In this document: positions 13,674 through 28,629 of the stretch, in pieces
Numbering within the stretch: the stretch's first letter is position 1
How the letters are laid out: the number at the start of each line of letters is the position of its first letter
Source of the DNA: Clostridia bacterium
GTDB lineage: Bacteria > Bacillota > Clostridia > Christensenellales > Pumilibacteraceae
Direction of reading: 5' to 3'
Length of the DNA: 35,515 nucleotides
NCBI GenBank assembly: GCA_017396125.1
Contig: JAFQMX010000024.1
Coordinates: 1 to 35,515 of the forward strand
Position numbers and translations under genes: made by a program
Notes under the pieces: generated by a model
What the model was told of the DNA's origin: nothing
The model's input: the letters and a program-made list of their open reading frames with translations, nothing else
Database searches by the model: none

Positions 13674-15527
13674 TCAAGGATCAACTTTTGTCCAGTTCTT
13701 TTTGTCATTTGCATTACCGTTGATAATATATTTGGACTTATAGAAGGTTGAATTCATATTTGTCCAACGAACGTAATAATATTCTCGTTGTTGCTGACCA
13801 TTACTATTTATAACGTCAAAATAAGATTTTTTGTTGGCTTTAACTGTGTCGTAATATTCTTGATTAGTAGAGTTGTTATTATTGTAAAGCAATTCAATAA
13901 TTGTAGGCATATAATTTGCATGATATAACTGTGCGTCGTCATTTGTTTTTAACGGAGTAGAGACGTCTCCAATTATATTAGTTCCTTCGCCTGCTTGTTT
14001 AATAAATAAAGCTGCCATAGGGACGTCATTAATTGTTTCGACATTACTTCTTGTAACCCAATTACCGTGGTCTGCCATAACGATAATCGTTGCGTCATCA
14101 TAAATTCCCAAAGCTTTCATTTGGTTGAAATACTCTTGTAAAATTTTGAAAGCACCACGGGTTTGAGAAATTTCATTACTGTTCTTGGTTTTTTTCAAAT
14201 TTTCATTGTATCCGTAAGGGTTGTGGCTAGCTAATAAATGCACAAAGCTAAAGACATTTTGTTCTTCATCTGCACTAAGACCAACGTCCGAAGATGTCAA
14301 ACGTTTATAAAATGCTAAATCACTTGACGTAGAAACGGTTTTGTCAAAATAATCAGGAGTATTTTTAATTTCCACGCAATCGTTTGGAATATTTATGTAT
14401 CCTGCAAACAGATGCTTCAAACAAAAAGGCATAAACTGATTAAGCGCTGCGGTAGTTACTGAAAAGCAAAATCTTAATTCTTTTATATCTCTGTCTTTTT
14501 CGTCAATTTTTTTAATATTATCAAACTTATCCTCAACTTGTGAAAACTCATAAAAAGTAGCTATTGAATTCAGCAATCCATTTACTTTGTAGTTATTGGC
14601 TTTTAGTGCCTCAAACAAAATCGGATTGTCCCAAGCTTTATTGGAAAATTCGATTTGTGATTGTTGCTTATCAAAAGTTTCGCCCGAAAGCAAGCCAAGG
14701 ACGGATGGGAAGGTGCCGGGATATTGTGAGATATTATCGGTATAATAAGTAAATCCCGAAAATATTTGTTTATCTTCCGGATGCTCCTCAAAAATTTCAT
14801 TAACATAATCAGTATCGAGTCTATCAAGAACAAATGTGATTATGTTGTTGTTTTTAGATAATTTCAATTGCTCATCTATGGAAAAATAGTAGAGATTATT
14901 TTTTGATGGAACGCTTTGGTATTTGTTGATAGTTGTAACCCAACCCACTAATTGCATACTGAATATTATTCCCATTATAAGAATTACAGTTTTGAACAGT
15001 GGATTAGCGGATTTAGGCACTGTTTTGGAAACGCTCTTTGCCGTTTGTGCTTTTGGGGTTTCAGGTTGTTTGCTTTTGCTCTTTTGCTGCTTAAATATAT
15101 ATATAACTGTTGGTAATAACAAAATTGCAAAGTAGAGTATTGCATTAATTATATATGTAAATATGCTGGCAGATATATAGCCGTTAACGTTTGTAATATT
15201 GCTGTCGTTAAAAAACAATAGTTGTACATAACTTGCTAGTTCGAGTCCAAAAAAGGCTAAAATAACGTGTTTGTAAATAGTTTTGTTAAAATAACATAAT
15301 ACAACCAAAATGATTGAAATAATGATGTAAGCCGAAACAACAAAAAGCAAATAATAGCCAATTATTTCCTTGAATAAAATGCCAAACTCTACTTGGTTGT
15401 TTCGAATAAAATCAATTTGCTTGAAAAGAAAAAAGCAAAATACAAAGAATAGAGAAAAAGCCAAAATAAAGAATATTTCTTTTTTACTTATGCTTTTAGT
15501 CTTTGTTATGTTGTTGTTTGGCTGCAT
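13674..15527 (-). CDS. LtaS-like membrane sulfatase-fold phosphotransferase
   Basis: The 617-residue protein has five likely membrane helices in residues 15-200 and an extracellular alkaline-phosphatase-fold domain. It carries the metal and active-site features of the lipoteichoic acid synthase / phosphoethanolamine transferase group: FVLDRLD (Asp235), YPGTFPS (likely nucleophile Thr272), LASHNPYG (His435) and VMADHGNW (Asp486-His487). Such enzymes move glycerol-phosphate or phosphoethanolamine head groups from lipids to polymers outside the membrane. Its ATG lies 32 bases inside the preceding gene, with GGAG upstream, so translation is coupled. The neighbouring phosphonate genes suggest that a phosphonate-bearing group may be its cargo. 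The donor is not determined. Confidence 0.85.
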   Translation of the reverse strand: MQPNNNITKTKSISKKEIFFILAFSLFFVFCFFLFKQIDFIRNNQVEFGILFKEIIGYYLLFVVSAYIIISIILVVLCYFNKTIYKHVILAFFGLELASYVQLLFFNDSNITNVNGYISASIFTYIINAILYFAILLLPTVIYIFKQQKSKSKQPETPKAQTAKSVSKTVPKSANPLFKTVILIMGIIFSMQLVGWVTTINKYQSVPSKNNLYYFSIDEQLKLSKNNNIITFVLDRLDTDYVNEIFEEHPEDKQIFSGFTYYTDNISQYPGTFPSVLGLLSGETFDKQQSQIEFSNKAWDNPILFEALKANNYKVNGLLNSIATFYEFSQVEDKFDNIKKIDEKDRDIKELRFCFSVTTAALNQFMPFCLKHLFAGYINIPNDCVEIKNTPDYFDKTVSTSSDLAFYKRLTSSDVGLSADEEQNVFSFVHLLASHNPYGYNENLKKTKNSNEISQTRGAFKILQEYFNQMKALGIYDDATIIVMADHGNWVTRSNVETINDVPMAALFIKQAGEGTNIIGDVSTPLKTNDDAQLYHANYMPTIIELLYNNNNSTNQEYYDTVKANKKSYFDVINSNGQQQREYYYVRWTNMNSTFYKSKYIINGNANDKKNWTKVDP

Positions 15528-17274
15528 TTTTTATCTCCTCTATCAAATATCTTCCACTTATTTCACTTGCTTTTTCGTTGTCATACATTAGACTTGCAAT
15601 AATCTCTTGTGGATTTTCTATCTTTTTAATATCTTCGATTGCTTGATTAATGTTGGATATTTCGCTTATTTCGATGGTTTTACCGATTTTATCCTTAATC
15701 GAAATTTCCAAAGGGGTTAATCCGTACTTATCCCAATCCGGATTCATAATTTTCATTGGCGTATTGATGAATAGAGCAGGCTTGTTGGTTGTGTAAGAAA
15801 ATTCCCAAGCAACGCTTGACCAATCAGAAATTATAATGTCTGCGTTTAATATGTCGGTCGCAAAGTCTAGTTGCAGAGAGTCTCCGAATTTCTTTTTTAA
15901 TATTTCCACCTTTTTAGGGAATCTTTTAATAAATTCGGGATGCGGTCTGATTATAACCTTGTATTTTGAGCTGTCCAGCTCGCTCATAATGCTATCTATA
16001 CAAGTTTCCAAAATATTGTCTTTTTGCCAACTTGGCGCAATAATAATCGTTTCTTTCTCGTTTTTTTGAGGGGTGTATTTGTTTTTTAATTGATGATACA
16101 GGTCATAGCCGGTGTTGACTAATTTTTTCTCTTTTGATCCGTAATAAGCTTCCATGGCACGAATCTCATCATTATAGTGCTTTCCAAAACAGAAAATGGT
16201 ATCAAAATGATCCAAGGAATTTTTCTTGATAGTCAAAGTAAGGCTGTTAAAACCGTGATGAACGTATACGTACTGTATGTTTTTATTAACAATTGAGCGT
16301 TTGTATTGATATTTCTGCAGGTCAGGCATAGTGAAAACTGCAACCTTGCAGTCCAATTCCATCAATACCGTAATCAATTTTTTAGGTCCACAGTAGTACG
16401 GAATAAAGTTAGGGTGATTTATTTTGAATACCTGATCATTTATATCGCTGGTCAAATAATGAACCTTAATTTTTGAGTTATTTAAGACGTATTCTATCAT
16501 GCCCTTGTAGTATTTATAAAAGCCACTGGCCTCTGAGTAAAAAACCAAATTTTTCTTGGCTTTTTTGAATTTTTTCATATCAACCGCTTGTTGCTTTTTT
16601 TGTCTTTTAATAAGGGCTCTGTCCTTTTTTTGCGGAGGCACCAGCTCATAAGTAACGTATTTTTGAGGCTTTAAAATAGCGTTACAAATAAATTGAACGG
16701 CAATTCCGAGTAAATTTCCCGATATCCAATAAATAGCAAATCCTATTCCGCAAACGTAGGCAAAGTAGAAAGAGAATATGGTCAAGAATATCGCCAAATT
16801 CCATTTTGCAAAGAAGGTCATTTCTTTTGCCAAAACGTTTGTTGCGTTTTGCGCATAGCAAAGAAGAAAAGCGGAAATCGCAGAAATTATTGGAAGTAAA
16901 ATGTTTTCGGGACGAGCGGACAAAATGCCAGATGTATCCAGCCCTCTGGATACGGCAATAATAATCGGAATTTGTAAAAATAAAGGAACCATGGAAGCAA
17001 AAGAATTATACTTTTCTTTTTTGTATAATTTTTTTTGTTCTGCTAACATGGTTTTCAGGTCGTGACTCAAATAAGCTTTAATATCATCCAACTGGGGTTT
17101 TATTTTTGCTAACTTTGCCGATTGAGACTGAGCCCAAAAGGAAAGTGGAAATAATAAAACTTTAATCGAAATTGAAAAAAGAATAATTGCTACAACATAG
17201 TTGTTGAAAATGCCGTAGTAAAGTTTTATTAATGCAATTATCGGCTTGGTAATTAAAATATCGAAAATGTTCAT
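15496..17274 (-). CDS. YidC/Oxa1 insertase domain fused to a CDP-glycerol glycerophosphotransferase domain
   Basis: A 592-residue fusion. Residues 1-215 match the YidC/Oxa1 fold: a first membrane helix with a positive residue (Lys38) where insertases have the groove Arg, a long amphipathic cytoplasmic hairpin (AKIKPQLDDIKAYL...KKLYKKEKYN), then the PLFLQIPIIIAV helix and three more. Residues 215-250 are a basic linker. Residues 255-580 are a TagF/TagB-type glycerophosphotransferase with YVHHGFNSL, IIAPSWQ, IIRPHPE and the diagnostic SDWSSVAWEFSYTTNKPALFINTP. Both domains look intact, and one continuous frame links them. The second domain normally uses CDP-glycerol on the cytoplasmic side; the nearby phosphonate operon suggests a CMP-phosphonate donor may be possible. 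Confidence 0.85.
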   Translation of the reverse strand: MNIFDILITKPIIALIKLYYGIFNNYVVAIILFSISIKVLLFPLSFWAQSQSAKLAKIKPQLDDIKAYLSHDLKTMLAEQKKLYKKEKYNSFASMVPLFLQIPIIIAVSRGLDTSGILSARPENILLPIISAISAFLLCYAQNATNVLAKEMTFFAKWNLAIFLTIFSFYFAYVCGIGFAIYWISGNLLGIAVQFICNAILKPQKYVTYELVPPQKKDRALIKRQKKQQAVDMKKFKKAKKNLVFYSEASGFYKYYKGMIEYVLNNSKIKVHYLTSDINDQVFKINHPNFIPYYCGPKKLITVLMELDCKVAVFTMPDLQKYQYKRSIVNKNIQYVYVHHGFNSLTLTIKKNSLDHFDTIFCFGKHYNDEIRAMEAYYGSKEKKLVNTGYDLYHQLKNKYTPQKNEKETIIIAPSWQKDNILETCIDSIMSELDSSKYKVIIRPHPEFIKRFPKKVEILKKKFGDSLQLDFATDILNADIIISDWSSVAWEFSYTTNKPALFINTPMKIMNPDWDKYGLTPLEISIKDKIGKTIEISEISNINQAIEDIKKIENPQEIIASLMYDNEKASEISGRYLIEEIKNAAKQQHNKD

Positions 17275-17301
17275 TTTTTACCTTCTTATTTTTTGCCAGT
17301 T

Positions 17302-17334
17302 TTAAACGAACCACTTGTTTTGTGATTCGTTTAA
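17302..17334. repeat. Intercistronic hairpin in the surface-polymer operon
   Basis: TTAAACGAA and TTCGTTTAA, plus CAC and GTG, form a 12-bp stem with one C-A mismatch around a seven-base loop. It lies in the 139-bp gap between the 85-residue protein gene and the YidC fusion gene. On the transcribed minus strand no T run follows, so it may mark RNA processing or protect the 3' end rather than terminate. Confidence 0.55.
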
Positions 17335-17413
17335 GGTGTTTTTATTTAGATATCCGGTTATGACTTAATTCTCTTCGCTTTTGTTGTTTAAAATCTGGTT
17401 GCCGGAAGGATTT

Positions 17414-17725: not shown

Positions 17726-17772
17726 CTTTTTTATCGCATATCATGATTTTTTATTTTTATTTTTATTTTTAC

Positions 17773-17801
17773 TTGCAAACTACTGCTTTTTGTGTTAACA
17801 T
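17773..17801 (+). promoter_or_regulatory. Promoter of the phosphonate operon, probably leaderless
   Basis: TTGCAA (17773-17778) and TAACAT (17796-17801) with a 17-bp spacer. The expected start of transcription (about seven bases after the -10) coincides with the ATG at 17809, and there is no Shine-Dalgarno sequence. Confidence 0.65.
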
Positions 17802-17808
17802 AAGACTT

Positions 17809-18936
17809 ATGGAAACCAAGTTATTTGTTGATATATTAAAAGAAGAATTTAACTGTTCGTTTTTTACTGGAGTACCTGATTCGCAGTTAAAAGAACTGTG
17901 TTATTATTTAACTCAAAACGAGAGTGAAAATCATTTAATTTGCGCTAACGAAGGTAATGCGGTTGCTGTTGCGGCAGGAGAGTACCTTTCTACGGGTAAA
18001 ATATCTGTTGTGTATATGCAAAACAGTGGATTGGGTAATATTGTTAATCCCGTTACGTCTCTGTTAAACAACAAGGTTTATGGAATACCTTGTGTTTTTG
18101 TCGTTGGATGGCGTGGTGAACCTCAAGTAAAAGACGAGCCACAGCACGTATTTCAGGGTGAAATTACCTTGGATCTATTACATGTTTTGGGTATTCATAC
18201 TATCGTTATTGACAAAAATACCGATATTGACGAACTAAAAGCTGATTTGAGAAAGGAATCGGATTATATCAAATCCGGCAATAGCATTGCGGTAGTAGTA
18301 AAAAAGGGTGCTTTTGAGTCGGTTGAAAAGGCTAAAGCAAAAAACGACTTTAAGCTTATAAGAGAGCAAGTAATAGACAAAATCACTAAATACACCAAAA
18401 CTGATCTCATAGTTTGTACTACGGGAAAGGCGTCCAGAGAGTTGTTTGAAATAAGAGAAAAGGACAACGAATCACACAAATACGATTTTTTAACGGTCGG
18501 TTCAATGGGACATGCTTCCAGCATTGCTTACGGAATTGCCAAAAACTTATCCGACAAAAAGGTATGGTGTATAGACGGCGATGGCGCAATACTTATGCAC
18601 ATGGGGGCGATGAGTATTATCGGCAACAAAAAACCAAAGAACCTCGTGCACGTTCTTATCAACAACCAAGCGCACGAAACGGTGGGCGGAATGGCTACGT
18701 CGTCAAGTAGCATGGATTATTGCTCGATTGCAAAAGCTTGCGGGTACGCTAAACAATATAGGGTTGAGACTGAGCAAGAGCTCGAAGAAACGCTAAAAAT
18801 TGCAAAAGAGTCCAATGAATTGACATTCGTTGAAATTTGTGTAGGACTTGGCTCAAGAGCGGATTTGGGTAGGCCGACCACAACTCCACAGCAAAACAAG
18901 AATTCATTTATGGACAATATAAAGGGGAATAAATAA
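17809..18936 (+). CDS. ppd: Phosphonopyruvate decarboxylase
   Basis: This thiamine-diphosphate enzyme decarboxylates phosphonopyruvate to phosphonoacetaldehyde and pulls the unfavourable PEP mutase reaction forward. The 375-residue protein shows the family's marks: TGVPDSQLK at the start, ANEGNAVAVAAGEYLSTG (catalytic Glu region), YMQNSGLGNIVNPV, GWRGEPQVKDEPQH, and the C-terminal cofactor motif GDGAILMHMGAM ending in INNQAHETVGG. The ATG at 17809 is preferred over an in-frame ATG at 17743, because the added residues are low-complexity Phe/Tyr and the promoter lies within that stretch. It is followed immediately by the PEP mutase gene. Identification is strong. Confidence 0.95.
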   Translation: METKLFVDILKEEFNCSFFTGVPDSQLKELCYYLTQNESENHLICANEGNAVAVAAGEYLSTGKISVVYMQNSGLGNIVNPVTSLLNNKVYGIPCVFVVGWRGEPQVKDEPQHVFQGEITLDLLHVLGIHTIVIDKNTDIDELKADLRKESDYIKSGNSIAVVVKKGAFESVEKAKAKNDFKLIREQVIDKITKYTKTDLIVCTTGKASRELFEIREKDNESHKYDFLTVGSMGHASSIAYGIAKNLSDKKVWCIDGDGAILMHMGAMSIIGNKKPKNLVHVLINNQAHETVGGMATSSSSMDYCSIAKACGYAKQYRVETEQELEETLKIAKESNELTFVEICVGLGSRADLGRPTTTPQQNKNSFMDNIKGNK

Positions 18937-18937
18937 C

Positions 18938-20941
18938 ATGATAGCGTTGATTATTAATTCGGGTATAGGCTCGAGAATGGGTGAATTAACGAAAAACGAG
19001 CCAAAGTGCATGACTAAGCTTTTTAATGGCGAAACGATATTGGAAAGACAGCTCAAGCAATTGGTTTATTTTGGAATAAAAAAAGTTATCGTTACAACCG
19101 GTTATTTGGAAGATAAAATAATTAATCATTGCAATAGCTTGGATTTGCCTATTGACATAAAATTTGTAAAAAATGAAAAGTTCAGAGAAACGAATTATAT
19201 TTACTCGGTTGAATGCGCAAAAGAATATTTGGATGATGATATCGTGTTTATGCACGGCGATTTGGTTTTTGAAGACAGTGTTCTTAAACAGCTTTTGCAT
19301 AATGAAAAGAGCTGTATGGCAGTTTCTTCAACAACCCCTCTCCCGGAAAAGGACTTTAAGGCAGTAATTAAAAACGGCAGAATAGATAAAGTCGGCGTAA
19401 ACTTTTTTGATGATGCACTTACGGCTCAACCGCTTTACAAAATTTTGAGAGAGGATTGGAACAAGTGGCTCAATAAAATTTCCGAATTTTGCAAAGACGG
19501 AAACGATAAGGTGTATGCAGAAAACGCTTTTAACGAAATCTCTGATAAGTGTGTGATTTATCCGTTGGACGTCAAGGATTCGTTGTGCGAAGAGATTGAC
19601 AACGCAAACGATTTGGAAAGAGTAGTGGAAAAGTTAAAGCTAATGCCGCAAAAGACGGTTTATATGGCTTTCTCTACCGATATAATCTTGCCTGCGCATA
19701 TCAGCATTATCAACAAGGCTTCTAGATTCGGAAGATTAATAGTTGGAATTTTGTCCGAGGCAGAGGTGATTCGCTACAAGAAGTTCTCTAGAATTAAATT
19801 CGAAGAGAGAAAAATGATGTTTGCCAATATTTCCAATATTTCCGAGGTAGTGGTGCAAAATACGCTCAGCTACAAGGAAAACATATTGACCTACAAGCCT
19901 GATATCGTGGTTCACGGGGACAACTGGGTTCAGGGTCCTCAGGCGCACATTAGAGCAGAGGTTGTGGAGCTACTCGCTGAATACGGCGGAAAGCTGATAG
20001 AATTCCCATACACAAAAGACGAAAATTATCAGGAAATTGAGGAACAGCTTAGAAATAGACTGTCTATTCCGGATATCCGCCGAGGTAGATTAAAGAAGAT
20101 TCTAAGAACGAAAAATTTGGCAAGAGTTATAGAGGCGCACAGCGGTATAACAGGTCTTATTGCTGAAGAAACTATCGTTCACAAGGACGGCAAGAATTTG
20201 CAATTTGACGCAATGTGGATATCCTCTCTTTGCGATTCTACCGTAAAAGGTAAGCCGGATATTGAATTGGTAGATTATACTTCAAGATTAAAAACGATTG
20301 ATGAGATAATGGAGGTAACTACTAAACCTATTATTCTGGATGGAGATACGGGTGGAAAAATTGAACACTTCAGCTATCTCGTCAGAACCCTTGAAAGAAT
20401 AGGTGTTTCGGCTATAATCATCGAGGACAAGGTGGGACTAAAAAAGAACTCCTTGTTTGGCACGGACGTAGTCCAAACTCAGGATACGATAGAGAATTTC
20501 TCGCAAAAAATTATTGCAGGTAAGCTCGCCCAAAAGACTAAGGACTTTATGATTATTGCCAGAATCGAGAGCTTGATTTTGGAAAAGGGCATGGACGATG
20601 CGCTAGAGAGAGCGTTTGCATTTACCAAAGCAGGTGCGGACGGAATTATGATTCATAGCAGGAAAAAAGATCCGTCCGAGATTTTCGAGTTTGTTGCAAA
20701 GTTTAGAGAGCAAGATAGTGATACCCCGATTGTTGTTGTTCCTACCTCGTTTAATACCGTAACGGAGGATGAGTTTGAGCAAGCAGGCGTAAATATCGTT
20801 ATTTATGCGAACCAATTAATCAGAAGCGGAATTCCAGCAATGAAAAAGGTTGCCGAAACGATTTTGTACAATCAAAGAGCAAAAGAAGCAGACGACCTTT
20901 GTATGCCGATAAAGGAAATTTTAAGTTTAATTAAGGAATAA
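18938..20941 (+). CDS. pepM: Three-domain protein: nucleotidyltransferase, degenerate cytidylyltransferase, PEP mutase
   Basis: PEP mutase makes the C-P bond, turning phosphoenolpyruvate into phosphonopyruvate. Residues 375-667 are that domain, with DGDTGG (468-473) and the signature EDKVGLKKNS (496-505). Residues 1-230 are a LicC/PntC-like nucleotidyltransferase (INSGIGSRMGELTKNEPK, ETNYIYSVE, MHGDLVFED), the type that makes CMP-phosphonates. Residues 238-360 resemble the TagD/Fom1 cytidylyltransferase fold (VYMAFSTDI, VVHGDNWVQG), but the HxGH site reads LPAH and the C-terminal ISST-type motif after PYTK is missing, so this middle domain is probably inactive. It is second in the ppd operon, one base after the ppd stop, with AAGGGG as ribosome binding site. 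Confidence 0.93.
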   Translation: MIALIINSGIGSRMGELTKNEPKCMTKLFNGETILERQLKQLVYFGIKKVIVTTGYLEDKIINHCNSLDLPIDIKFVKNEKFRETNYIYSVECAKEYLDDDIVFMHGDLVFEDSVLKQLLHNEKSCMAVSSTTPLPEKDFKAVIKNGRIDKVGVNFFDDALTAQPLYKILREDWNKWLNKISEFCKDGNDKVYAENAFNEISDKCVIYPLDVKDSLCEEIDNANDLERVVEKLKLMPQKTVYMAFSTDIILPAHISIINKASRFGRLIVGILSEAEVIRYKKFSRIKFEERKMMFANISNISEVVVQNTLSYKENILTYKPDIVVHGDNWVQGPQAHIRAEVVELLAEYGGKLIEFPYTKDENYQEIEEQLRNRLSIPDIRRGRLKKILRTKNLARVIEAHSGITGLIAEETIVHKDGKNLQFDAMWISSLCDSTVKGKPDIELVDYTSRLKTIDEIMEVTTKPIILDGDTGGKIEHFSYLVRTLERIGVSAIIIEDKVGLKKNSLFGTDVVQTQDTIENFSQKIIAGKLAQKTKDFMIIARIESLILEKGMDDALERAFAFTKAGADGIMIHSRKKDPSEIFEFVAKFREQDSDTPIVVVPTSFNTVTEDEFEQAGVNIVIYANQLIRSGIPAMKKVAETILYNQRAKEADDLCMPIKEILSLIKE

Positions 20942-20944
20942 GTC

Positions 20945-21973
20945 ATGCAACAGCTATACAACGGCTTGGATAATCTGAATAACATTATAGAGTCTAACGG
21001 TTTGAAAAGCATTTTATTAGTTTGCGGGCAACGTGTTTTAGAAACACGCTTTGTCGCTGATGCGCTCAAAAGCTTAAAAGCAAAATATAAAGCTTTTACG
21101 AATTTTACGCCAAACCCCAAGCTTGAAGAAGCAAAGCTGTGTTTGGAATATTTCGCAAATGAAAAATTTGATGCTATAATAGCCATTGGTGGCGGAAGTT
21201 CAATGGATGTAGCAAAGTACATTAAATTGCAAACCGCTTTGCCGTTGATAGCCGTTCCGACAACTGCGGGGTCGGGAAGCGAAGCTACAAAATATGCTGT
21301 TATTTACGATAACGGTGAAAAACAGTCCATTACCTCTGAAGATATAATTCCTGAATTTGTTGTTTTTGAGTCTAAGTTTCTTGAAACATTACCGGAATAT
21401 CAAAAGAAATGCACAGTTTTGGACGCACTTTGCCATTCGATTGAATCCTATTGGTCGATAAACTCCACTACAGAATCACAAAAAATTGCTAAGGAAGCCA
21501 TTCAATTAATATTGGCTAACTATAAAGACTATGTCAACAACGACAGAAATGTTTTTAATGATATTATGTTTGCCGCAAATCTTGCCGGAAAAGCAATTAA
21601 TATAACTCAAACTACTGCAGGGCATGCTTTTAGCTACAAAATAACTTCGATATTTGATATTCCGCACGGACACGCAGTAGCGGTGTGCTTGTCAAAGGTT
21701 TGGGCGTTTTTGAACGACAATATATGCTTGTGTAGCGATCCACGAGGCGAGGTGTATTTGTCAAAAACGCTTTGTGAGCTGGAAAATATAATTAGTTTAG
21801 ATAAATTTAATAATATATTGAATTATTTTGGACTTAAAGCTCCGAAAATTAGCGAGCAATCGCAAATCGATTTGCTCGTAAAGTCGGTTAACGTTCAAAG
21901 ATTAAAAAACTTCCCAATAAAGCTTTCGGATAAAGATGTTGAGGAAATTTATAGAAATATCGGATGTCGCTGA
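20945..21973 (+). CDS. Iron-type alcohol dehydrogenase, probable phosphonoacetaldehyde reductase
   Basis: The 342-residue protein is a group III (iron-containing) alcohol dehydrogenase: IGGGSSMDVAK (cofactor loop), VPTTAGSGSEAT, and the metal ligands Asp in LDALCHSIES and His in TAGHAFSY and IPHGHAVA. In phosphonate clusters the PhpC/FomC branch of this family reduces phosphonoacetaldehyde to 2-hydroxyethylphosphonate. Placement directly after ppd and PEP mutase (3-base gap, AAGGA ribosome binding site), and the absence of an aminotransferase, make that assignment likely. It ends the operon; the terminator is at 22097. Confidence 0.85.
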   Translation: MQQLYNGLDNLNNIIESNGLKSILLVCGQRVLETRFVADALKSLKAKYKAFTNFTPNPKLEEAKLCLEYFANEKFDAIIAIGGGSSMDVAKYIKLQTALPLIAVPTTAGSGSEATKYAVIYDNGEKQSITSEDIIPEFVVFESKFLETLPEYQKKCTVLDALCHSIESYWSINSTTESQKIAKEAIQLILANYKDYVNNDRNVFNDIMFAANLAGKAINITQTTAGHAFSYKITSIFDIPHGHAVAVCLSKVWAFLNDNICLCSDPRGEVYLSKTLCELENIISLDKFNNILNYFGLKAPKISEQSQIDLLVKSVNVQRLKNFPIKLSDKDVEEIYRNIGCR

Positions 21974-22256: not shown

Positions 22257-23783
22257 ATGCAGGTAATACTTAACGGTAGAGATTTGACGATAGAGCAAGT
22301 TGTTGCTGTGGCGAGAAACGGCGCAAAGGTCGTGCTTAGCGACGAGGCGCAGACCGCCGTAAAAAAGGCACGCGATTACGTTGACAAAAAACTGTCCGAA
22401 AAAGCAGTGATTTATGGTCTTACCACGGGATTTGGTAAGTTTTCGGATATTTTTATCTCCGAAGAAGATACCAAGCCTTTGCAAAAAAACCTTATTATCA
22501 GCCACTCTTGCGGTATGGGTAATCCGCTTCCATTAGAAACGGTCAGGGCGGCAATGCTACTTAGATGCAACGCGCTTAGCCGTGGCAACAGCGGTATCAG
22601 ACTTAGTACGCTTCAGACCATGGTGGATATGCTCAATGCAGGTGTTCATCCGCAGATTCCAGAAAAAGGAAGCTTGGGTGCGAGCGGAGATTTGGCACCG
22701 CTTTCGCACATAGTTTTGGTTATGCTTGGCGAAGGCCACGCCGAATACAAAGGGGAGATTCTTAGCGGAAAGCAAGCTATGAAAAAGGCGGGAATTGATA
22801 CAATCGAGCTCGCGGCAAAAGAGGGACTTGCGCTGATTAACGGGACGCAAATTATGACGGCGATAGGCTGTCTAGCCGTTTACGACGCAAGAAACCTTGC
22901 AAAAACTGCGGATATTATTGGAGCAATGACCTGCGAGGCTCAGCTCGGTATCAAAAAGGCTTTTGACCACAAGATTCACGACGTGCGCGGTCATAAGGGA
23001 CAAAAGGACGTTGCGTGCAATCTTTTGAATATTTTATCCGGAAGCAATCTTGCTTTTGACACCAACCCTAACAAGGTTCAGGACGCGTACACGATACGTT
23101 GTATGCCACAAATTCACGGTGCGAGCAGAGACGCGATAGATTACGTTTGGGATGCGGTATCAAGAGAAATTAACGCCGTTACCGACAATCCTATTATCTT
23201 TCCGGACGACGACGAGGTTATCTCGGGCGGAAACTTCCACGGACAGCCTATGGCACTTGCCTTTGACTTTTTGAAGATAGCAGTTGCAGAGTATGCCGAC
23301 GTTTCGGAGCGAAGAATAGAGCGTATGGTAAATCCTCAGCTTTCTAACGGACTTCCTGCATTTTTGACCAAGTACAGCGGAGTAAACTCGGGCTTTATGA
23401 TAGCGCAGTATTCCGCAGCGTCCATGGTTTCGGAAAATAAAATTTACGCTCATCCTGCCAGCGTCGATTCCATTCCGTCTTCTGCTAACCAAGAGGACCA
23501 CGTTAGTATGGGAACTACCGCGGCACGCACCGCAAGAATGATTTTGGACAACAGCCAAAAGGTGCTGGGAATAGAACTTTTCACCGCATACCAAGCATTG
23601 TATCTTCGTGGCAAGGAGAATTTGTCGCCTGCCACCAGAGCAGTTTACAACCATATCGCAAAGAAGGTTGCGCCGGTGGAAGAAGATATCGTAATGCACT
23701 ACGAAATGGTTAAGTTTGACGAAATGATAAAGGCAAACGAAATAGTCAAAGTAGCCGAGAGCGTTTGCGGAAAATTGTTGTAA
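22257..23783 (+). CDS. hutH: Histidine ammonia-lyase
   Basis: HutH removes ammonia from histidine to give urocanate, the first step of histidine degradation. The 508-residue protein has the Ala142-Ser143-Gly144 triad, which cyclises to the MIO electrophile, inside GSLGASGDLAPLSH. It also has the catalytic Tyr53 in YGLTTGFG and the later NPIIFPDDDEVISGGNFHGQPMAL and PSSANQEDHVSMG blocks typical of histidine rather than phenylalanine lyases. It is the first gene of a five-gene degradation operon, 12 bases ahead of hutU. Confidence 0.97.
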   Translation: MQVILNGRDLTIEQVVAVARNGAKVVLSDEAQTAVKKARDYVDKKLSEKAVIYGLTTGFGKFSDIFISEEDTKPLQKNLIISHSCGMGNPLPLETVRAAMLLRCNALSRGNSGIRLSTLQTMVDMLNAGVHPQIPEKGSLGASGDLAPLSHIVLVMLGEGHAEYKGEILSGKQAMKKAGIDTIELAAKEGLALINGTQIMTAIGCLAVYDARNLAKTADIIGAMTCEAQLGIKKAFDHKIHDVRGHKGQKDVACNLLNILSGSNLAFDTNPNKVQDAYTIRCMPQIHGASRDAIDYVWDAVSREINAVTDNPIIFPDDDEVISGGNFHGQPMALAFDFLKIAVAEYADVSERRIERMVNPQLSNGLPAFLTKYSGVNSGFMIAQYSAASMVSENKIYAHPASVDSIPSSANQEDHVSMGTTAARTARMILDNSQKVLGIELFTAYQALYLRGKENLSPATRAVYNHIAKKVAPVEEDIVMHYEMVKFDEMIKANEIVKVAESVCGKLL

Positions 23784-23795
23784 GGAGAAATTACG

Positions 23796-25814
23796 ATGAT
23801 AAATAATAAAGACATAAATGGAGCAATGACCATAAAACTAGACAACATTTTGCCTGAATACCCTGCTTTTGAGGAGGGCAAACGTCGTGCGCCTGACCGA
23901 GGCTACCGCTTGACCAAGGCACAGACCGAGCTTGCGCTTAGAAACGCTTTACGCTACGTGCCGGAGGAACTTCACGAGACACTCGCTCCTGAGTTTTTGG
24001 AAGAGCTCAAGACCAGAGGCAGAATTTATGCGTACCGTTATCGTCCACAGGGTAGGATTTACGGCAAGCCCATAGACGAATACAAAGGAAATTGTCTGGA
24101 AGGCAAGGCTTTTCAGGTTATGATAGATAACAATCTCGATTTTGAGATAGCGTTGTATCCGTATGAGCTCGTAACTTATGGTGAAACTGGCCAGCCGTGC
24201 CAAAACTGGCTTCAGTATAGATTAATTAAAAAATATCTCGAACAACTTACCGAAAATCAGACCTTGGTAATCGAGTCGGGACACCCGTTGGGACTTTTTC
24301 CGTCCAAGCCTACTGCGCCAAGAGTAATTATCACAAACGCGCTTATGGTGGGAATGTTTGATAATATGGACGATTGGGAAATTGCCGAGCAGATGGGCGT
24401 TGCCAACTACGGACAAATGACCGCGGGCGGTTGGATGTATATCGGACCGCAGGGAATAGTTCACGGAACGTTTAACACTATTCTCGGCGCGGGAAGAAAG
24501 TTCCTCGGCATTTCCGAGCAAGGCGATTTGCAGGGGCGCACCTTCGTTTCATCAGGACTGGGCGGAATGAGCGGTGCACAGCCAAAGGCGGCTAATATTG
24601 CTAACGCTGTTGGAATATTTGCCGAGGTTGATAGATCGAGAATTCAGACGAGATACGATCAAGGTTGGGTAAACGTAATTAGCGACGATCTTGCCGAGGT
24701 TTTCAAGATTGCGAGAGAGCACGTTGAGAGCAAAAAGACTATTTCGATAGCATACCACGGCAATATCGTGGATTTGCTCGAATACGCCGACAAAATAGAT
24801 TTCAAGATTGACTTGCTTTCTGACCAGACATCGTGTCACAACGCCTACAATGGTGGATACTGTCCGCAAGGCTTAACCTTTGAGCAACGTACTCAAATGC
24901 TACACGACGACCGAAACGGATTTATAGAGCGAGTAAACGCTTCGCTCAAGCGCCACTTCGAAGTTATTCGTCGTCTCACCAAAAAGGGAACGTATTTCTT
25001 TGACTACGGCAACTCCTTTATGAAAGCGATTTACGACAGCGGAGTAAAGGAAATTTCCAAAAACGGCGTGGACGAAAAAGATGGATTTATCTTCCCATCC
25101 TACGTAGAGGATATTATGGGACCTATGCTGTTCGATTACGGTTACGGACCTTTCCGCTGGGTATGTCTTTCGGGCAAGCAAGAGGATTTGCGCAAGACTG
25201 ACAAGGCGGCTATGGATTGCATTGATCCAAACAGACGCTTCCAGGATAGAGATAACTATATTTGGATTAAGGACGCAGAAAAGAACAAGCTCGTTGTGGG
25301 AACTCAGGCGAGAATTTTGTATCAGGATGCGGGCGGAAGAACGCGTATTGCTTTGAAGTTTAACGAGCTCGTGCGCAACGGAGAAATCGGTCCGGTTATG
25401 CTAGGACGTGACCACCACGACGTTTCGGGAACTGACTCGCCGTTTAGAGAGACCTCCAATATCAAGGATGGTAGCAACGTTATGGCAGATATGGCAGTTC
25501 AATGCTTTGCTGGTAACGCTGCCCGTGGAATGAGCCTTTGCGCGCTTCACAACGGTGGCGGTGTGGGAATAGGCAAGGCAATAAACGGTGGCTTTGGACT
25601 CGTTTTGGACGGAAGCGAGAGAGTCGACGAGATAATCAAGAGCGCCATGATGTGGGACGTTATGGGCGGTGTTGCTCGTCGTAACTGGGCGCGTAACGAG
25701 CACTCGATTCAGACCACTATGCTCTACAATCAGGAGTCCGAGGGGAAAGCACACGTCACTATTCCGTATCTCGTAGACGACGCGCTTATCGAGCGTTTGA
25801 CCAAAAATTTGTAA
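23796..25814 (+). CDS. hutU: Urocanate hydratase, long form
   Basis: HutU hydrates urocanate to 4-imidazolone-5-propionate using tightly bound NAD+ as an electrophile. The 672-residue product is about 110 residues longer than the Pseudomonas/Bacillus enzyme; this longer form occurs in many anaerobes. Recognisable segments are ESGHPLGLFPSKPTAPR, YGQMTAGGWMYIGPQGIVHGT, SGLGGMSGAQPKAANIA (nucleotide-binding region), DQTSCHNAYNGGYCPQG, and LGRDHHDVSGTDSPFRETS near the C terminus. AAGGAG lies upstream of the ATG. Its position between hutH and ftcD confirms the role. Confidence 0.95.
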   Translation: MINNKDINGAMTIKLDNILPEYPAFEEGKRRAPDRGYRLTKAQTELALRNALRYVPEELHETLAPEFLEELKTRGRIYAYRYRPQGRIYGKPIDEYKGNCLEGKAFQVMIDNNLDFEIALYPYELVTYGETGQPCQNWLQYRLIKKYLEQLTENQTLVIESGHPLGLFPSKPTAPRVIITNALMVGMFDNMDDWEIAEQMGVANYGQMTAGGWMYIGPQGIVHGTFNTILGAGRKFLGISEQGDLQGRTFVSSGLGGMSGAQPKAANIANAVGIFAEVDRSRIQTRYDQGWVNVISDDLAEVFKIAREHVESKKTISIAYHGNIVDLLEYADKIDFKIDLLSDQTSCHNAYNGGYCPQGLTFEQRTQMLHDDRNGFIERVNASLKRHFEVIRRLTKKGTYFFDYGNSFMKAIYDSGVKEISKNGVDEKDGFIFPSYVEDIMGPMLFDYGYGPFRWVCLSGKQEDLRKTDKAAMDCIDPNRRFQDRDNYIWIKDAEKNKLVVGTQARILYQDAGGRTRIALKFNELVRNGEIGPVMLGRDHHDVSGTDSPFRETSNIKDGSNVMADMAVQCFAGNAARGMSLCALHNGGGVGIGKAINGGFGLVLDGSERVDEIIKSAMMWDVMGGVARRNWARNEHSIQTTMLYNQESEGKAHVTIPYLVDDALIERLTKNL

Positions 25815-25863
25815 TACGTATTGAAAAATTTTTAACATACAACAAATAAAAGGAGAAAATAAA

Positions 25864-26760
25864 ATGGCAAAAATCGTTGAATGCGTACCTAATATCAGCG
25901 AGGGAAGAAACCCGCAGATTATAGAAGCAGTAGTAGATCAGGTCAGAGCAGTAAAGGGTGTTACCTTGCTCGATTACTGTAGCGATCCTTCGCACAACCG
26001 TAGCGTAATTACTTTCCTTGGCTGTCCGGAAGGCGTTGCAGAGGCGGCAGTTGCAGTAGCAAAAAAGGCTGCTGAGCTTATTGACCTTACTAAGCACGAA
26101 GGCGAGCATCCAAGAATGGGCGCTGTGGACGTAATTCCATTTATTCCTATCAAGGAGATGGAAGTTGAAGAGTGTGTTGCGCTTTCTAAAGAAGTTGCAA
26201 AGAGAGTTTGGGAAGAAGCAAAAATGCCTGTTTTCTTGTACGAAGATTCCGCTAGTGCTCCACACAGAGTTAACCTTGCGCAGATCCGCAAAGGTCAGTT
26301 CGAGGGTATGGCTCAAAAGGTTCAGGAACCTGAGTGGGAACCTGATTTTGGTGGCAAAACCATTCACCCAACTGCCGGCGTCGTTGCAGTAGGTGCTCGT
26401 ATGCCACTCGTTGCGTTCAACATCAACCTTTCTACCTCTGATATTGAAATTGCCAGCAAAATCGCAAAAATCATCCGTCGTAGCACCGGTGGATTCGATT
26501 GCGTAAAGGCTCTCGGCGTTATGCTGGAAGACCGCAATATTGCGCAGGTTTCTATCAATATGACCAACTTCCACAAGACTCCGCTTTATCGCGTGCTTGA
26601 GCTTACCAAAGCCGAGGCAGCGCGCTGGGGGGTGCACGTAGTAGGTACCGAAATCATAGGTCTTGCTCCAATGCAGGCGCTTATTGATTCTGCTGAATAC
26701 TATATGCAGATAGAAAATTTTGACTTTGACAAGCAGGTTTTGGAAAACCATATGCTTTAA
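25864..26760 (+). CDS. ftcD: Glutamate formimidoyltransferase
   Basis: This enzyme moves the formimino group of N-formimino-glutamate to tetrahydrofolate, releasing glutamate. The 298-residue protein starts with IVECVPNISEGRN, followed by LLDYCSDPSHNRSVITFLG and HEGEHPRMGAVDVIPFIP, which are the hallmark blocks of the FTCD N-terminal domain, including the catalytic His. The cyclodeaminase domain that is fused in animals is a separate gene here (fchA at 28003). A strong ribosome binding site (AAAGGAG) precedes it, and the stop lies 10 bases before hutI. Confidence 0.96.
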   Translation: MAKIVECVPNISEGRNPQIIEAVVDQVRAVKGVTLLDYCSDPSHNRSVITFLGCPEGVAEAAVAVAKKAAELIDLTKHEGEHPRMGAVDVIPFIPIKEMEVEECVALSKEVAKRVWEEAKMPVFLYEDSASAPHRVNLAQIRKGQFEGMAQKVQEPEWEPDFGGKTIHPTAGVVAVGARMPLVAFNINLSTSDIEIASKIAKIIRRSTGGFDCVKALGVMLEDRNIAQVSINMTNFHKTPLYRVLELTKAEAARWGVHVVGTEIIGLAPMQALIDSAEYYMQIENFDFDKQVLENHML

Positions 26761-26770
26761 GGAGTAAAAA

Positions 26771-28006
26771 ATGCTGCTGATAAAAAATATCGGTATTCTT
26801 CAAACGCCGATAGGAAAAAACAGTCTTTGCGGTGAGGCGCAAGCACAAAACCTTAAGCTCACTAACGCAGCAATCCTTGTAGAAAACGGAAAAATTTCCG
26901 CTATTTACGAGGATGGCAAGCTTCCTAATTTGTCTAGCGTTGGCGAGTGCGAAGTAGTGGATGCGGATGGACGCTTGGTTACGCCGGGACTCGTCGATTG
27001 CCACACGCATCTCGTTTTTGGCGGATGGCGGCACAACGAAATTCCGCTAAAGCTTCGTGGGGCAACCTACCTTGATATTCTCAAGGCGGGCGGTGGAATT
27101 TTGGACACCGTGCGTCACACCCGTCAAATGAGCGAGGACGAGCTTTTTGAAAAGAGCAAGGGATTCGTAAACGAAATGCTGGCAGGCGGTGTTACTACCG
27201 TCGAGTCCAAGAGTGGATACGGACTGAATCTCGACGACGAGCTAAAACAGCTGTGCGTGAACAAGAGGTTGAACGAAGAAACCGCTATGCAGGTCGTTTC
27301 CACCTTTCTCGGCGCGCACGCAATTCCGCCTGAGTACAAGGGCAAGCCAAACAAATATATAGACTTTTTGTGCAACGTAGTGTTGCCTGCGGTAAAAGAG
27401 CAAAATCTCGCGGAGTTTTGCGACGTATTTTGCGAGGATGCGGTTTTTGACGTGGAGCAAAGCAAGAAAATGTTGCTTACGGCGCAAAAGCTTGGATTTA
27501 AGAGCAAAATTCACGCTGACGAGATAGAGGCAATCGGTGGGGCGGTTTTGGCGGGAGAGATAAAGGCTATTTCGGCCGAGCATCTTATCGCTACCAACGA
27601 GCAGGGCATAGAAAGCATGGCAAAGGGCGGTGTTACGGCAGCGCTACTTCCTGCGACGTCGTTCTATTTAGGAAAGACATACGCTCCTGCACGTGAGATG
27701 ATAAAAAACGGTATCCCTGTGGCGATAGCATCAGACTTTAATCCGGGGTCCTGCCCATCACTTAATTTGCAGTTTGCAATCAACCTTGGCTATCTCAAGT
27801 ACCGTATGCTGCCGGAAGAAATTCTTACGGCGACTACGCTCAACGCGGCTTGCGCAATAGACAGAGGTGAAACAATCGGAAGCATCGAGGTGGGCAAGCA
27901 GGCCGATCTCGTAATATGGGATGCACCGAATTTTGAGATGATTTGTTATCGATTTGGTAGCAACCAAGTAAAAACAGTAATTAAAAAAGGAGAAATAATA
28001 CAATGA
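26771..28006 (+). CDS. hutI: Imidazolonepropionase
   Basis: HutI hydrolyses 4-imidazolone-5-propionate to N-formimino-glutamate. The 411-residue amidohydrolase shows metal-binding DCHTHLVFGGWR, ESKSGYGL, the HADEIEAIGGAVLAGEI histidine, SAEHLIATN, and the DFNPGSCPSLNLQ aspartate, followed by a C-terminal composite domain (GSIEVGKQADLVIWD). Length and motifs fit the family exactly. Its TGA overlaps the ATG of fchA by four bases (ATGA), so the two are coupled in translation. Confidence 0.97.
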   Translation: MLLIKNIGILQTPIGKNSLCGEAQAQNLKLTNAAILVENGKISAIYEDGKLPNLSSVGECEVVDADGRLVTPGLVDCHTHLVFGGWRHNEIPLKLRGATYLDILKAGGGILDTVRHTRQMSEDELFEKSKGFVNEMLAGGVTTVESKSGYGLNLDDELKQLCVNKRLNEETAMQVVSTFLGAHAIPPEYKGKPNKYIDFLCNVVLPAVKEQNLAEFCDVFCEDAVFDVEQSKKMLLTAQKLGFKSKIHADEIEAIGGAVLAGEIKAISAEHLIATNEQGIESMAKGGVTAALLPATSFYLGKTYAPAREMIKNGIPVAIASDFNPGSCPSLNLQFAINLGYLKYRMLPEEILTATTLNAACAIDRGETIGSIEVGKQADLVIWDAPNFEMICYRFGSNQVKTVIKKGEIIQ

Positions 28007-28629
28007 AATTAGCAGAAATGACCATATCGGCATATTTGGATTTGCTCAATTCGGACGCACCGGCACCTGGTGGCGGTAGCGCAAGCGCACTTTGCGGAGC
28101 GCAGGGAGCGGCACTCGTATCGATGGTAGCAGGACTTACTATCGGCAAGAAAAAGTATCCTGACGATCAGGAATTGTGTATCGAAGTAGCAAAAAAGACT
28201 TCAGAACTCAAAGACGCGTTGCTTGCGCAGGTAGACAAGGACACTGAGGCGTTTAATCTCGTTTCGGCAGCGTTCAAGATGCCAAAGGAAACCGATGCGG
28301 AAAAGGCTGCTCGTTCGCAGGCTATCGCCGATGCTACCTTGGTTGCAACCAAAGTTCCTTTCGAAACCATGACTCTTTGTCTTGAAACTTTGCGTTACAC
28401 TAGATCTCTCGTTGGGCATTCCAACACAAATGCAGCAAGTGACCTTGGTGTTTCCGCTCTCAATTTGATTTCTTGTATGAAGGGCGCTTGGCTCAACGTG
28501 CTTATCAATCTCAGTGGCTTGGAAGACCAAGCGGTTGCAAATGATTTCCGTACCAAGGGCGAAGAAATGGTAAAAACCGCTCAAAAGGAGTCGGAAGAAA
28601 TTTATCAAGCCATTCTCGAAATTCTTTAA
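28003..28629 (+). CDS. fchA: Formimidotetrahydrofolate cyclodeaminase
   Basis: This enzyme deaminates 5-formimino-tetrahydrofolate to 5,10-methenyl-tetrahydrofolate and ammonia, passing a one-carbon unit to folate metabolism. The 208-residue, all-helical protein has the family opening PAPGGGSASALCGAQGAALVSMVAGLT, then KKYPD and DTEAFNLVSAAFKMPK. It is the stand-alone form of the C-terminal FTCD domain. With ftcD it completes the route from histidine to glutamate plus methenyl-folate without releasing formamide. Confidence 0.96.
   Translation: MKLAEMTISAYLDLLNSDAPAPGGGSASALCGAQGAALVSMVAGLTIGKKKYPDDQELCIEVAKKTSELKDALLAQVDKDTEAFNLVSAAFKMPKETDAEKAARSQAIADATLVATKVPFETMTLCLETLRYTRSLVGHSNTNAASDLGVSALNLISCMKGAWLNVLINLSGLEDQAVANDFRTKGEEMVKTAQKESEEIYQAILEIL

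Follow-up and report, generated by a model that had tools for sequence, protein, structure and literature searches.

Transferases related to TagF use donors activated with cytidine diphosphate (CDP) and carry two catalytic histidine residues. LtaS draws the group that it transfers from a lipid of the outer leaflet, the choline-bearing lipid-linked chain of the Lic route is moved by TacF, and members of the YidC family possess a hydrophilic groove. Cytidylyl activation of phosphonates is described for Pnt clusters with cytidylyltransferases fused to phosphoenolpyruvate (PEP) mutase, and the neighbors named for these clusters are LicD-like phosphotransferases and glycosyltransferases (Rice et al. 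2019, PMC6697681). Purified YidC from Escherichia coli as well as Oxa1 and Get1 scramble lipids in liposomes (PMC10491306). Here, we analyze a stretch of 35,515 nucleotides (the window; contig JAFQMX010000024.1, assembly GCA_017396125.1) from a Clostridia bacterium of the Pumilibacteraceae, in which a YidC-type membrane domain and a TagF-like transferase are joined in one protein that is encoded next to an LtaS-like enzyme, a small protein with a YIDPAS motif (YIDP protein) and genes for phosphonate formation. The link of this module to surface decoration is strong. We tentatively favor the interpretation that the fusion forms the inner-face half of a surface-decorating machine, which uses head groups activated by cytidine monophosphate (CMP) or CDP and in which the YidC fold helps the carrier to cross the membrane. 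The head group in the source genome is most likely hydroxyethylphosphonate (HEP).

The YidC-TagF fusion protein

A single open frame without a stop encodes the YidC domain (PF02096, residues 26-198, E 1.7e-28, 100 bits against a cut-off of 35) and the TagF-like domain (PF04464, residues 372-517, E 2.9e-8, 33.5 bits against a cut-off of 22.1). With both domains above the curated Pfam cut-offs, the uninterrupted fusion frame claimed in the initial annotation is confirmed; the score for the NCBIfam YidC subfamily-domain TIGR03592 is 75.0 bits and thus below the cut-off of 84.3. In an AlphaFold2 model made with 16 homologs (mean pLDDT 83.8, pTM 0.72), a short linker connects a helical N-terminal domain with a C-terminal alpha/beta domain. 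A Foldseek search with this model returned TagF (3l7l) as top match (E 3.5e-9) besides other GT-B folds, and YidC of Bacillus halodurans (3wo6/3wo7) with TM-scores by target of 0.68-0.73. The YidC fold was thus recovered, and the complete five-helix YidC/Oxa1-like domain with cytoplasmic hairpin that had been proposed from the sequence is borne out by PF02096, model and structural match. Residues 200-240 comprise 14 lysine or arginine and three aspartate or glutamate residues.

YidC-TagF fusions are referred to as class I, and a second architecture (class II) is described below. Invariant residues of the TagF-like domain are H340, R443-P-H445-P and D484-W-S486. From the originally proposed motifs HHG, RPHPE and SDWSS, RPHP and DWS are retained in 16 of 16 class I proteins, whereas only the second histidine of HHG, H340, is invariant. 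Both catalytic histidines, H340 in the HG motif and H445 in RPHP, are found in 16/16 class I and 6/6 class II proteins. In the fifth transmembrane helix of the YidC domain, W183 and N187 are invariant, and the hallmark residues K/R38, W183 and N187 are retained in 20/20 class I proteins. Position 38 is lysine in 16 and arginine in four of these 20, and is thus always charged. Lys38 had been regarded as an unusual replacement of the groove arginine; this special feature is ruled out because lysine is the commonest groove residue in the ordinary YidCs compared (35/46, arginine in 11/46). An ordinary YidC is encoded on another contig of the source genome, and therefore the YidC domain of the fusion represents an accessory copy.

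In a scan of contigs from 84,980 species genomes, the same full-length fusion was found on 15 named contigs of metagenome-assembled genomes (MAGs), with 35-57% identity in the best segment. These MAGs are labeled as Oscillospiraceae, Clostridia, Coriobacteriales and, in one case, 'Prevotella'; such labels can be wrong. The full fusion is further present in 5 of 391 genomes drawn from the class, namely that of the window and four more, and in 2 of 398 genomes drawn from the phylum. In all, it occurs in at least 20 bacterial loci (the window and 19 further ones). Because the same full-length fusion recurs in the 15 MAG loci and four further genomes, it is not a chimera. The 19 further homologous fusions also rule out a frameshift or mis-assembly. 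The fusion was not found in 36 other genomes examined from the source family, from which it follows that the locus was probably acquired horizontally. A scan of viral contigs with two peptide patterns only, addressing a mobile or phage gene, revealed no relative.

Partner proteins, domain shuffling and head-group genes

Transcription on the minus strand proceeds from the YIDP gene via the fusion gene to the LtaS-like gene, whose first 32 bases are shared with the end of the fusion gene. An inverted repeat (TTAAACGAA...TTCGTTTAA) is located at 17300-17345 between the YIDP and fusion genes, and a T-rich stretch follows it on the plus strand. The LtaS-like enzyme and the phosphonate genes, both present at the locus, had been missed in the initial annotation. 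For the former, LtaS is the best PDB profile match (E 2.9e-9), and the model consists of five long N-terminal helices, with predicted topology, and a catalytic domain that is predicted to face outward. D235, T272, H430, D486 and H487 are invariant, which for D235, T272, D486 and H487 holds in 17 sequences. The YIDP segment is conserved and, as it is joined to the sulfatase (PF00884) or to TagF in other genomes, constitutes a domain in its own right. Among 61 genomes of the source organism and its relatives, only the copy in the window matched well, and YIDP thus does not belong to the housekeeping genes there; no paper with the motif 'YIDPGTG' was found in the literature searched. The suggestion that the 85-residue protein could be a client or partner of the fusion holds in part: a role as client is not supported, but its behavior is that of a constant subunit or domain.

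In class I, YIDP occurs as a small protein by itself or forms the N-terminus of the sulfatase, as in L042 and L044-L048 and, according to blastp, in L080. In class II, which was found in 11 of the 391 class genomes, a YIDP-TagF protein with the motif YIDP[GA]TG at its own N-terminus in every case occurs beside a YidC-sulfatase protein, and both genes are adjacent in most class II loci examined. The TagF subfamily was called with a joint profile, with which its members reach 367-578 bits (class II 367-483 bits) compared to at most 38 bits for canonical PF04464 proteins; this profile was built from both classes and thus favors both, and a profile of class I alone finds class II TagFs at about 134-171 bits. 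One TagF is often accompanied by two to four exofacial enzymes (L038, L047, L143, L158). In L158 (4948-18640), one YIDP-TagF, four YidC-sulfatase and two nucleotidyltransferase genes lie within 14 kb, and the exofacial enzyme is strongly duplicated. In the tree, the YidC domains of class I are united in a single clade with support of 100, which is positioned with ordinary YidCs of clostridia. Those of class II are in a separate clade, and a joint clade is not rejected (approximately unbiased (AU) test, p 0.35). Tree and AU test are compatible with either of two histories, and the YidC fold may have been recruited once with reshuffling or twice. The joint recurrence of the four domains YidC, TagF, YIDP and sulfatase, despite changing fusions among them, is strong evidence that they form one functional unit.

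The phosphonate genes lie on the plus strand, divergent from the three module genes, and complete a locus of six genes. PEP is converted via phosphonopyruvate and phosphonoacetaldehyde into HEP, which is activated to CMP-HEP, by enzymes of the families encoded here. The likely start of the decarboxylase is the methionine of METKLF at 17809. In the triple fusion, the PEP mutase domain scores 413 bits with TIGR02320 (cut-off 319.6), and its motif EDKVGLKKNS matches EDKXXXXXNS. The alcohol dehydrogenase reaches 138 bits with the PsrA equivalog, below the cut-off of 424, and the assignment of the reduction step is therefore based on context. As no glycosyltransferase intervenes between the genes of this locus, the module looks self-contained.

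Head-group genes adjoin both class I and class II loci. HEP-type genes (PEP mutase, phosphonopyruvate decarboxylase, iron-type alcohol dehydrogenase) are found beside the module in the window, L082 and L083, and genes of the 2-aminoethylphosphonate (AEP) type, with an aminotransferase, in L037 and L151, while L146 has PEP mutase and the decarboxylase. Choline-type genes are represented by LicC-LicA with a BCCT transporter in L038 and L087 and by LicC-LicA in L039. In L036, L147 and L158, a LicC-like nucleotidyltransferase is fused to a CobD/HisC-like pyridoxal phosphate-dependent domain, which perhaps indicates an ethanolamine-type phosphate head group. Two of these fusions (L036, 8142-10001, with a methyltransferase; L147, 2093-4006) adjoin the module and possibly represent a route from an amino acid phosphate to activated (methylated) ethanolamine phosphate. 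With these neighbors making CMP-phosphonate or CDP-choline-type donors, the original designation as glycerophosphotransferase probably names the wrong substrate. Within the 391 class genomes, PEP mutase is present in 12 of the 15 genomes that have class I or II versus 20 of 376 others (Fisher p 4e-12, a value that overstates independence because the genomes are related), and the excess persists without the dominating genus (5/6 versus 19/375, p 4e-6). In L164 (8798-13221), from a distant genome, PEP mutase-nucleotidyltransferase, phosphonopyruvate decarboxylase, a nucleotidyltransferase and AEP transaminase are encoded in a row and precede a stand-alone member of the present TagF subfamily (378 bits), after which two PF00884 proteins follow; there is no YidC or YIDP in the stretch read, which could represent a YidC-free form of the system. 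The head-group neighbors, the PEP mutase association and L164 together suggest a chemical core of TagF and sulfatase, a cytidylyl-activated head group as donor, and YidC and YIDP as membrane parts added to this core.

Table 1. Coordinates of the six-gene locus and of the domains of the fusion protein in the window
Feature	Position	Strand	Basis or remarks
LtaS-like PF00884 ('sulfatase') membrane enzyme, 617 aa	13674..15527	-	Pfam, model, PDB profile match
YidC-TagF fusion protein, 592 aa	15496..17274	-	Open reading frame, Pfam, homologs, AlphaFold2 model, Foldseek
TagF-like (PF04464) cytosolic transferase domain, residues 241-592	15499..16554	-	Profile, motifs, Foldseek
Basic linker, about residues 206-240, predicted helix 216-238	16555..16659	-	Composition, model
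YidC/Oxa1-type membrane domain with cytoplasmic hairpin, residues 1-205	16660..17274	-	PF02096, model, Foldseek
YIDP protein, 85 aa	17414..17671	-	One transmembrane helix (about residues 11-38) behind YIDPAS motif
Phosphonopyruvate decarboxylase	17743..18936	+	TIGR03297, 467 bits (cut-off 312.5)
Triple fusion of LicC-like nucleotidyltransferase (PF12804), CTP_transf_like (PF01467) and PEP mutase	18938..20941	+	Pfam, TIGR02320
Iron-type alcohol dehydrogenase, probable phosphonoacetaldehyde reductase forming 2-hydroxyethylphosphonate	20945..21973	+	PF00465, gene context

Two further regions of the plus strand were named by eye. A histidine-degradation-like run at 22257-28629 encodes histidine ammonia-lyase, urocanase, formiminotransferase, imidazolonepropionase and a cyclodeaminase-like protein, and a gene running off the contig end (29652-35513) encodes at least 1954 aa with a lipoprotein-like N-terminus, InlB-type repeats and BspA-like leucine-rich repeats.

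Possible roles of the YidC fold

According to the favored interpretation, surface decoration would start with the plus-strand operon, the enzyme families of which suggest that HEP is made and activated to CMP-HEP. At the cytosolic face, the TagF-like domain would use CMP-HEP to load the phosphonate onto a membrane carrier, for which a lipid is most likely. If the LtaS-like enzyme uses an outer-leaflet lipid as LtaS does, the product of the inside enzyme must be a lipid, and this lipid has to cross the membrane afterwards; YidC is the part of the module with a hydrophilic groove. Kept on site by the fusion, the YidC fold could pass the polar-headed carrier over the bilayer as a local scramblase or flippase. 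Outside, the LtaS-like enzyme would use its conserved threonine to take over the group from the carrier and pass it on to an acceptor at the surface, as expected from its family. The one-helix YIDP segment, which is fused to both enzymes in other genomes, might serve as a constant membrane subunit tethering transferase and exofacial enzyme. The presence of several exofacial enzymes per TagF suits a shared membrane intermediate such as a lipid.

Several points weigh against this interpretation. Substrate, carrier, crossing and acceptor are what we infer from the gene content, fusions, conservation and association seen in the sequences, and lipid passage through the YidC fold is the weakest step. 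The version in L164 argues that YidC is not needed for the chemistry. In class II, the groove residue of YidC is N, S, Q or T in 8/8 and charged in 0/8 domains, and the groove possibly does not do the same job in both classes. The neighborhood association is partly carried by one genus, and polysaccharide-synthesis genes near some loci, such as that for an O-antigen-ligase-like protein in L082, make a polymer product possible there.

Both L164 and the lost groove residue also suit a serious, though in our estimation doubtful, rival, in which the decoration pathway is otherwise unchanged but YidC is only a membrane anchor and docking platform for TagF, the groove carries nothing, and crossing is due to a separate flippase or to the donor lipid's own movement. 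The anchoring of class II TagF by the one-helix YIDP segment instead fits this as well. However, a five-helix insertase would be a costly anchor, its hallmarks are kept throughout class I, and YidC is retained, now on the exofacial enzyme, where TagF is anchored by other means.

It is improbable that the YidC domain still inserts proteins, namely the LtaS-like enzyme and YIDP, and thereby coordinates assembly of the complex. The basic segment behind the YidC domain resembles the ribosome-binding tails of Oxa1/YidC proteins, and the overlapping genes would allow co-translational assembly. In addition, the Sec holotranslocon has been linked to the loading of exported enzymes, e.g., LtaS, with metal (PMC10550928). 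A dedicated insertase is nevertheless at odds with the ordinary YidC elsewhere in the genome and with class II, in which the supposed client and YidC are parts of one protein and the groove has lost its charged residue, and it leaves the fusion to a cytosolic nucleotide-dependent transferase unexplained. The idea of the initial annotation that the groove acts for the transferase as a platform or lipid passage that couples synthesis to export fits better than protein insertion, given this ordinary YidC and the two shuffled architectures near head-group-activating genes. Least probable is a polymer synthase, in which TagF would polymerize the activated unit into, e.g., poly-hydroxyethylphosphonate as a phosphonate analog of teichoic acid for export or finishing by YidC and sulfatase, because, although PF04464 includes teichoic acid polymerases and the free hydroxyl group of HEP could be polymerized, choline phosphate and AEP as predicted units of sister loci cannot form such a chain and the TagF domain is far from canonical PF04464.

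With less confidence than for the favored interpretation as such, we consider it possible that surface decoration has recruited the YidC fold, in one event with reshuffling or in two events, as a dedicated flippase for a lipid carrier. Phosphonate tailoring would thereby gain the transfer and export step that it is missing. Relatives elsewhere exist for each of the four domain families or segments, and for three of these they belong to known families. Neither the fusion nor the swapped architecture nor the link to phosphonate or choline activation was found in the literature searched, with subscription literature outside its scope, and nothing relevant was found there on YidC with a glycerophosphotransferase, with LtaS or with extra domains. 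To our knowledge, a lipid-linked head group instead of a polypeptide would then be a biological substrate without precedent in the YidC/Oxa1 superfamily; if YidC is a flippase here, the superfamily serves more than proteins. For the question of how activated phosphonates such as CMP-AEP and CMP-HEP get onto bacterial surfaces, which becomes testable, the module provides a candidate transferase, a candidate exofacial enzyme and a candidate membrane component. A natural use of the in vitro lipid scrambling by insertases becomes testable with a YidC hard-wired to a transferase (class I) or an outward-facing enzyme (class II).

Comparison with known systems

The Lic pathway of Streptococcus pneumoniae (LicA-LicB-LicC-LicD with the flippase TacF) resembles the present system in the CDP-choline-type activated head group, the LicC/LicA-type genes of several sister loci and the presumed surface target. 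In contrast, YidC, YIDP and an LtaS-like enzyme accompany a PF04464 transferase at the locus in the window instead of LicD and TacF, and the prediction here is a transferase on the outside. The six genes of this locus include neither LicD nor a TacF-like gene; the rest of the source genome, which is 67.6% complete, was not searched for either. The PF12804-PF01467-PEP mutase triple fusion has domains of a type counted in 42 proteins for the Pnt clusters, and YidC does not occur in the text of that study (PMC6697681). For the steps of transfer and export that are still missing, the present module supplies a candidate.

TagF/TarL proteins (PF04464) share fold and catalytic histidine positions with the transferase, 3l7l being the best structural match, but the present subfamily is distant, N-terminally fused to YidC or YIDP, and found in a phosphonate or choline context instead of among CDP-glycerol genes. 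The phosphotransferases of the alkaline phosphatase superfamily, LtaS and EptA, likewise have five N-terminal helices and a catalytic domain with threonine and metal ligands; relatives of the present enzyme differ in being fused to YIDP or YidC, and a different head group is presumed. A lipid-moving membrane domain joined to a cytosolic lipid-making domain is known from MprF, a lysyl-phosphatidylglycerol synthase and flippase described as bifunctional (PMC5898192). The folds are unrelated, and MprF is an analogy only. Finally, the YidC/Oxa1/Alb3 insertases have a homologous membrane domain with the same hallmark residues, whereas the present YidC is an accessory copy in an enzyme operon.

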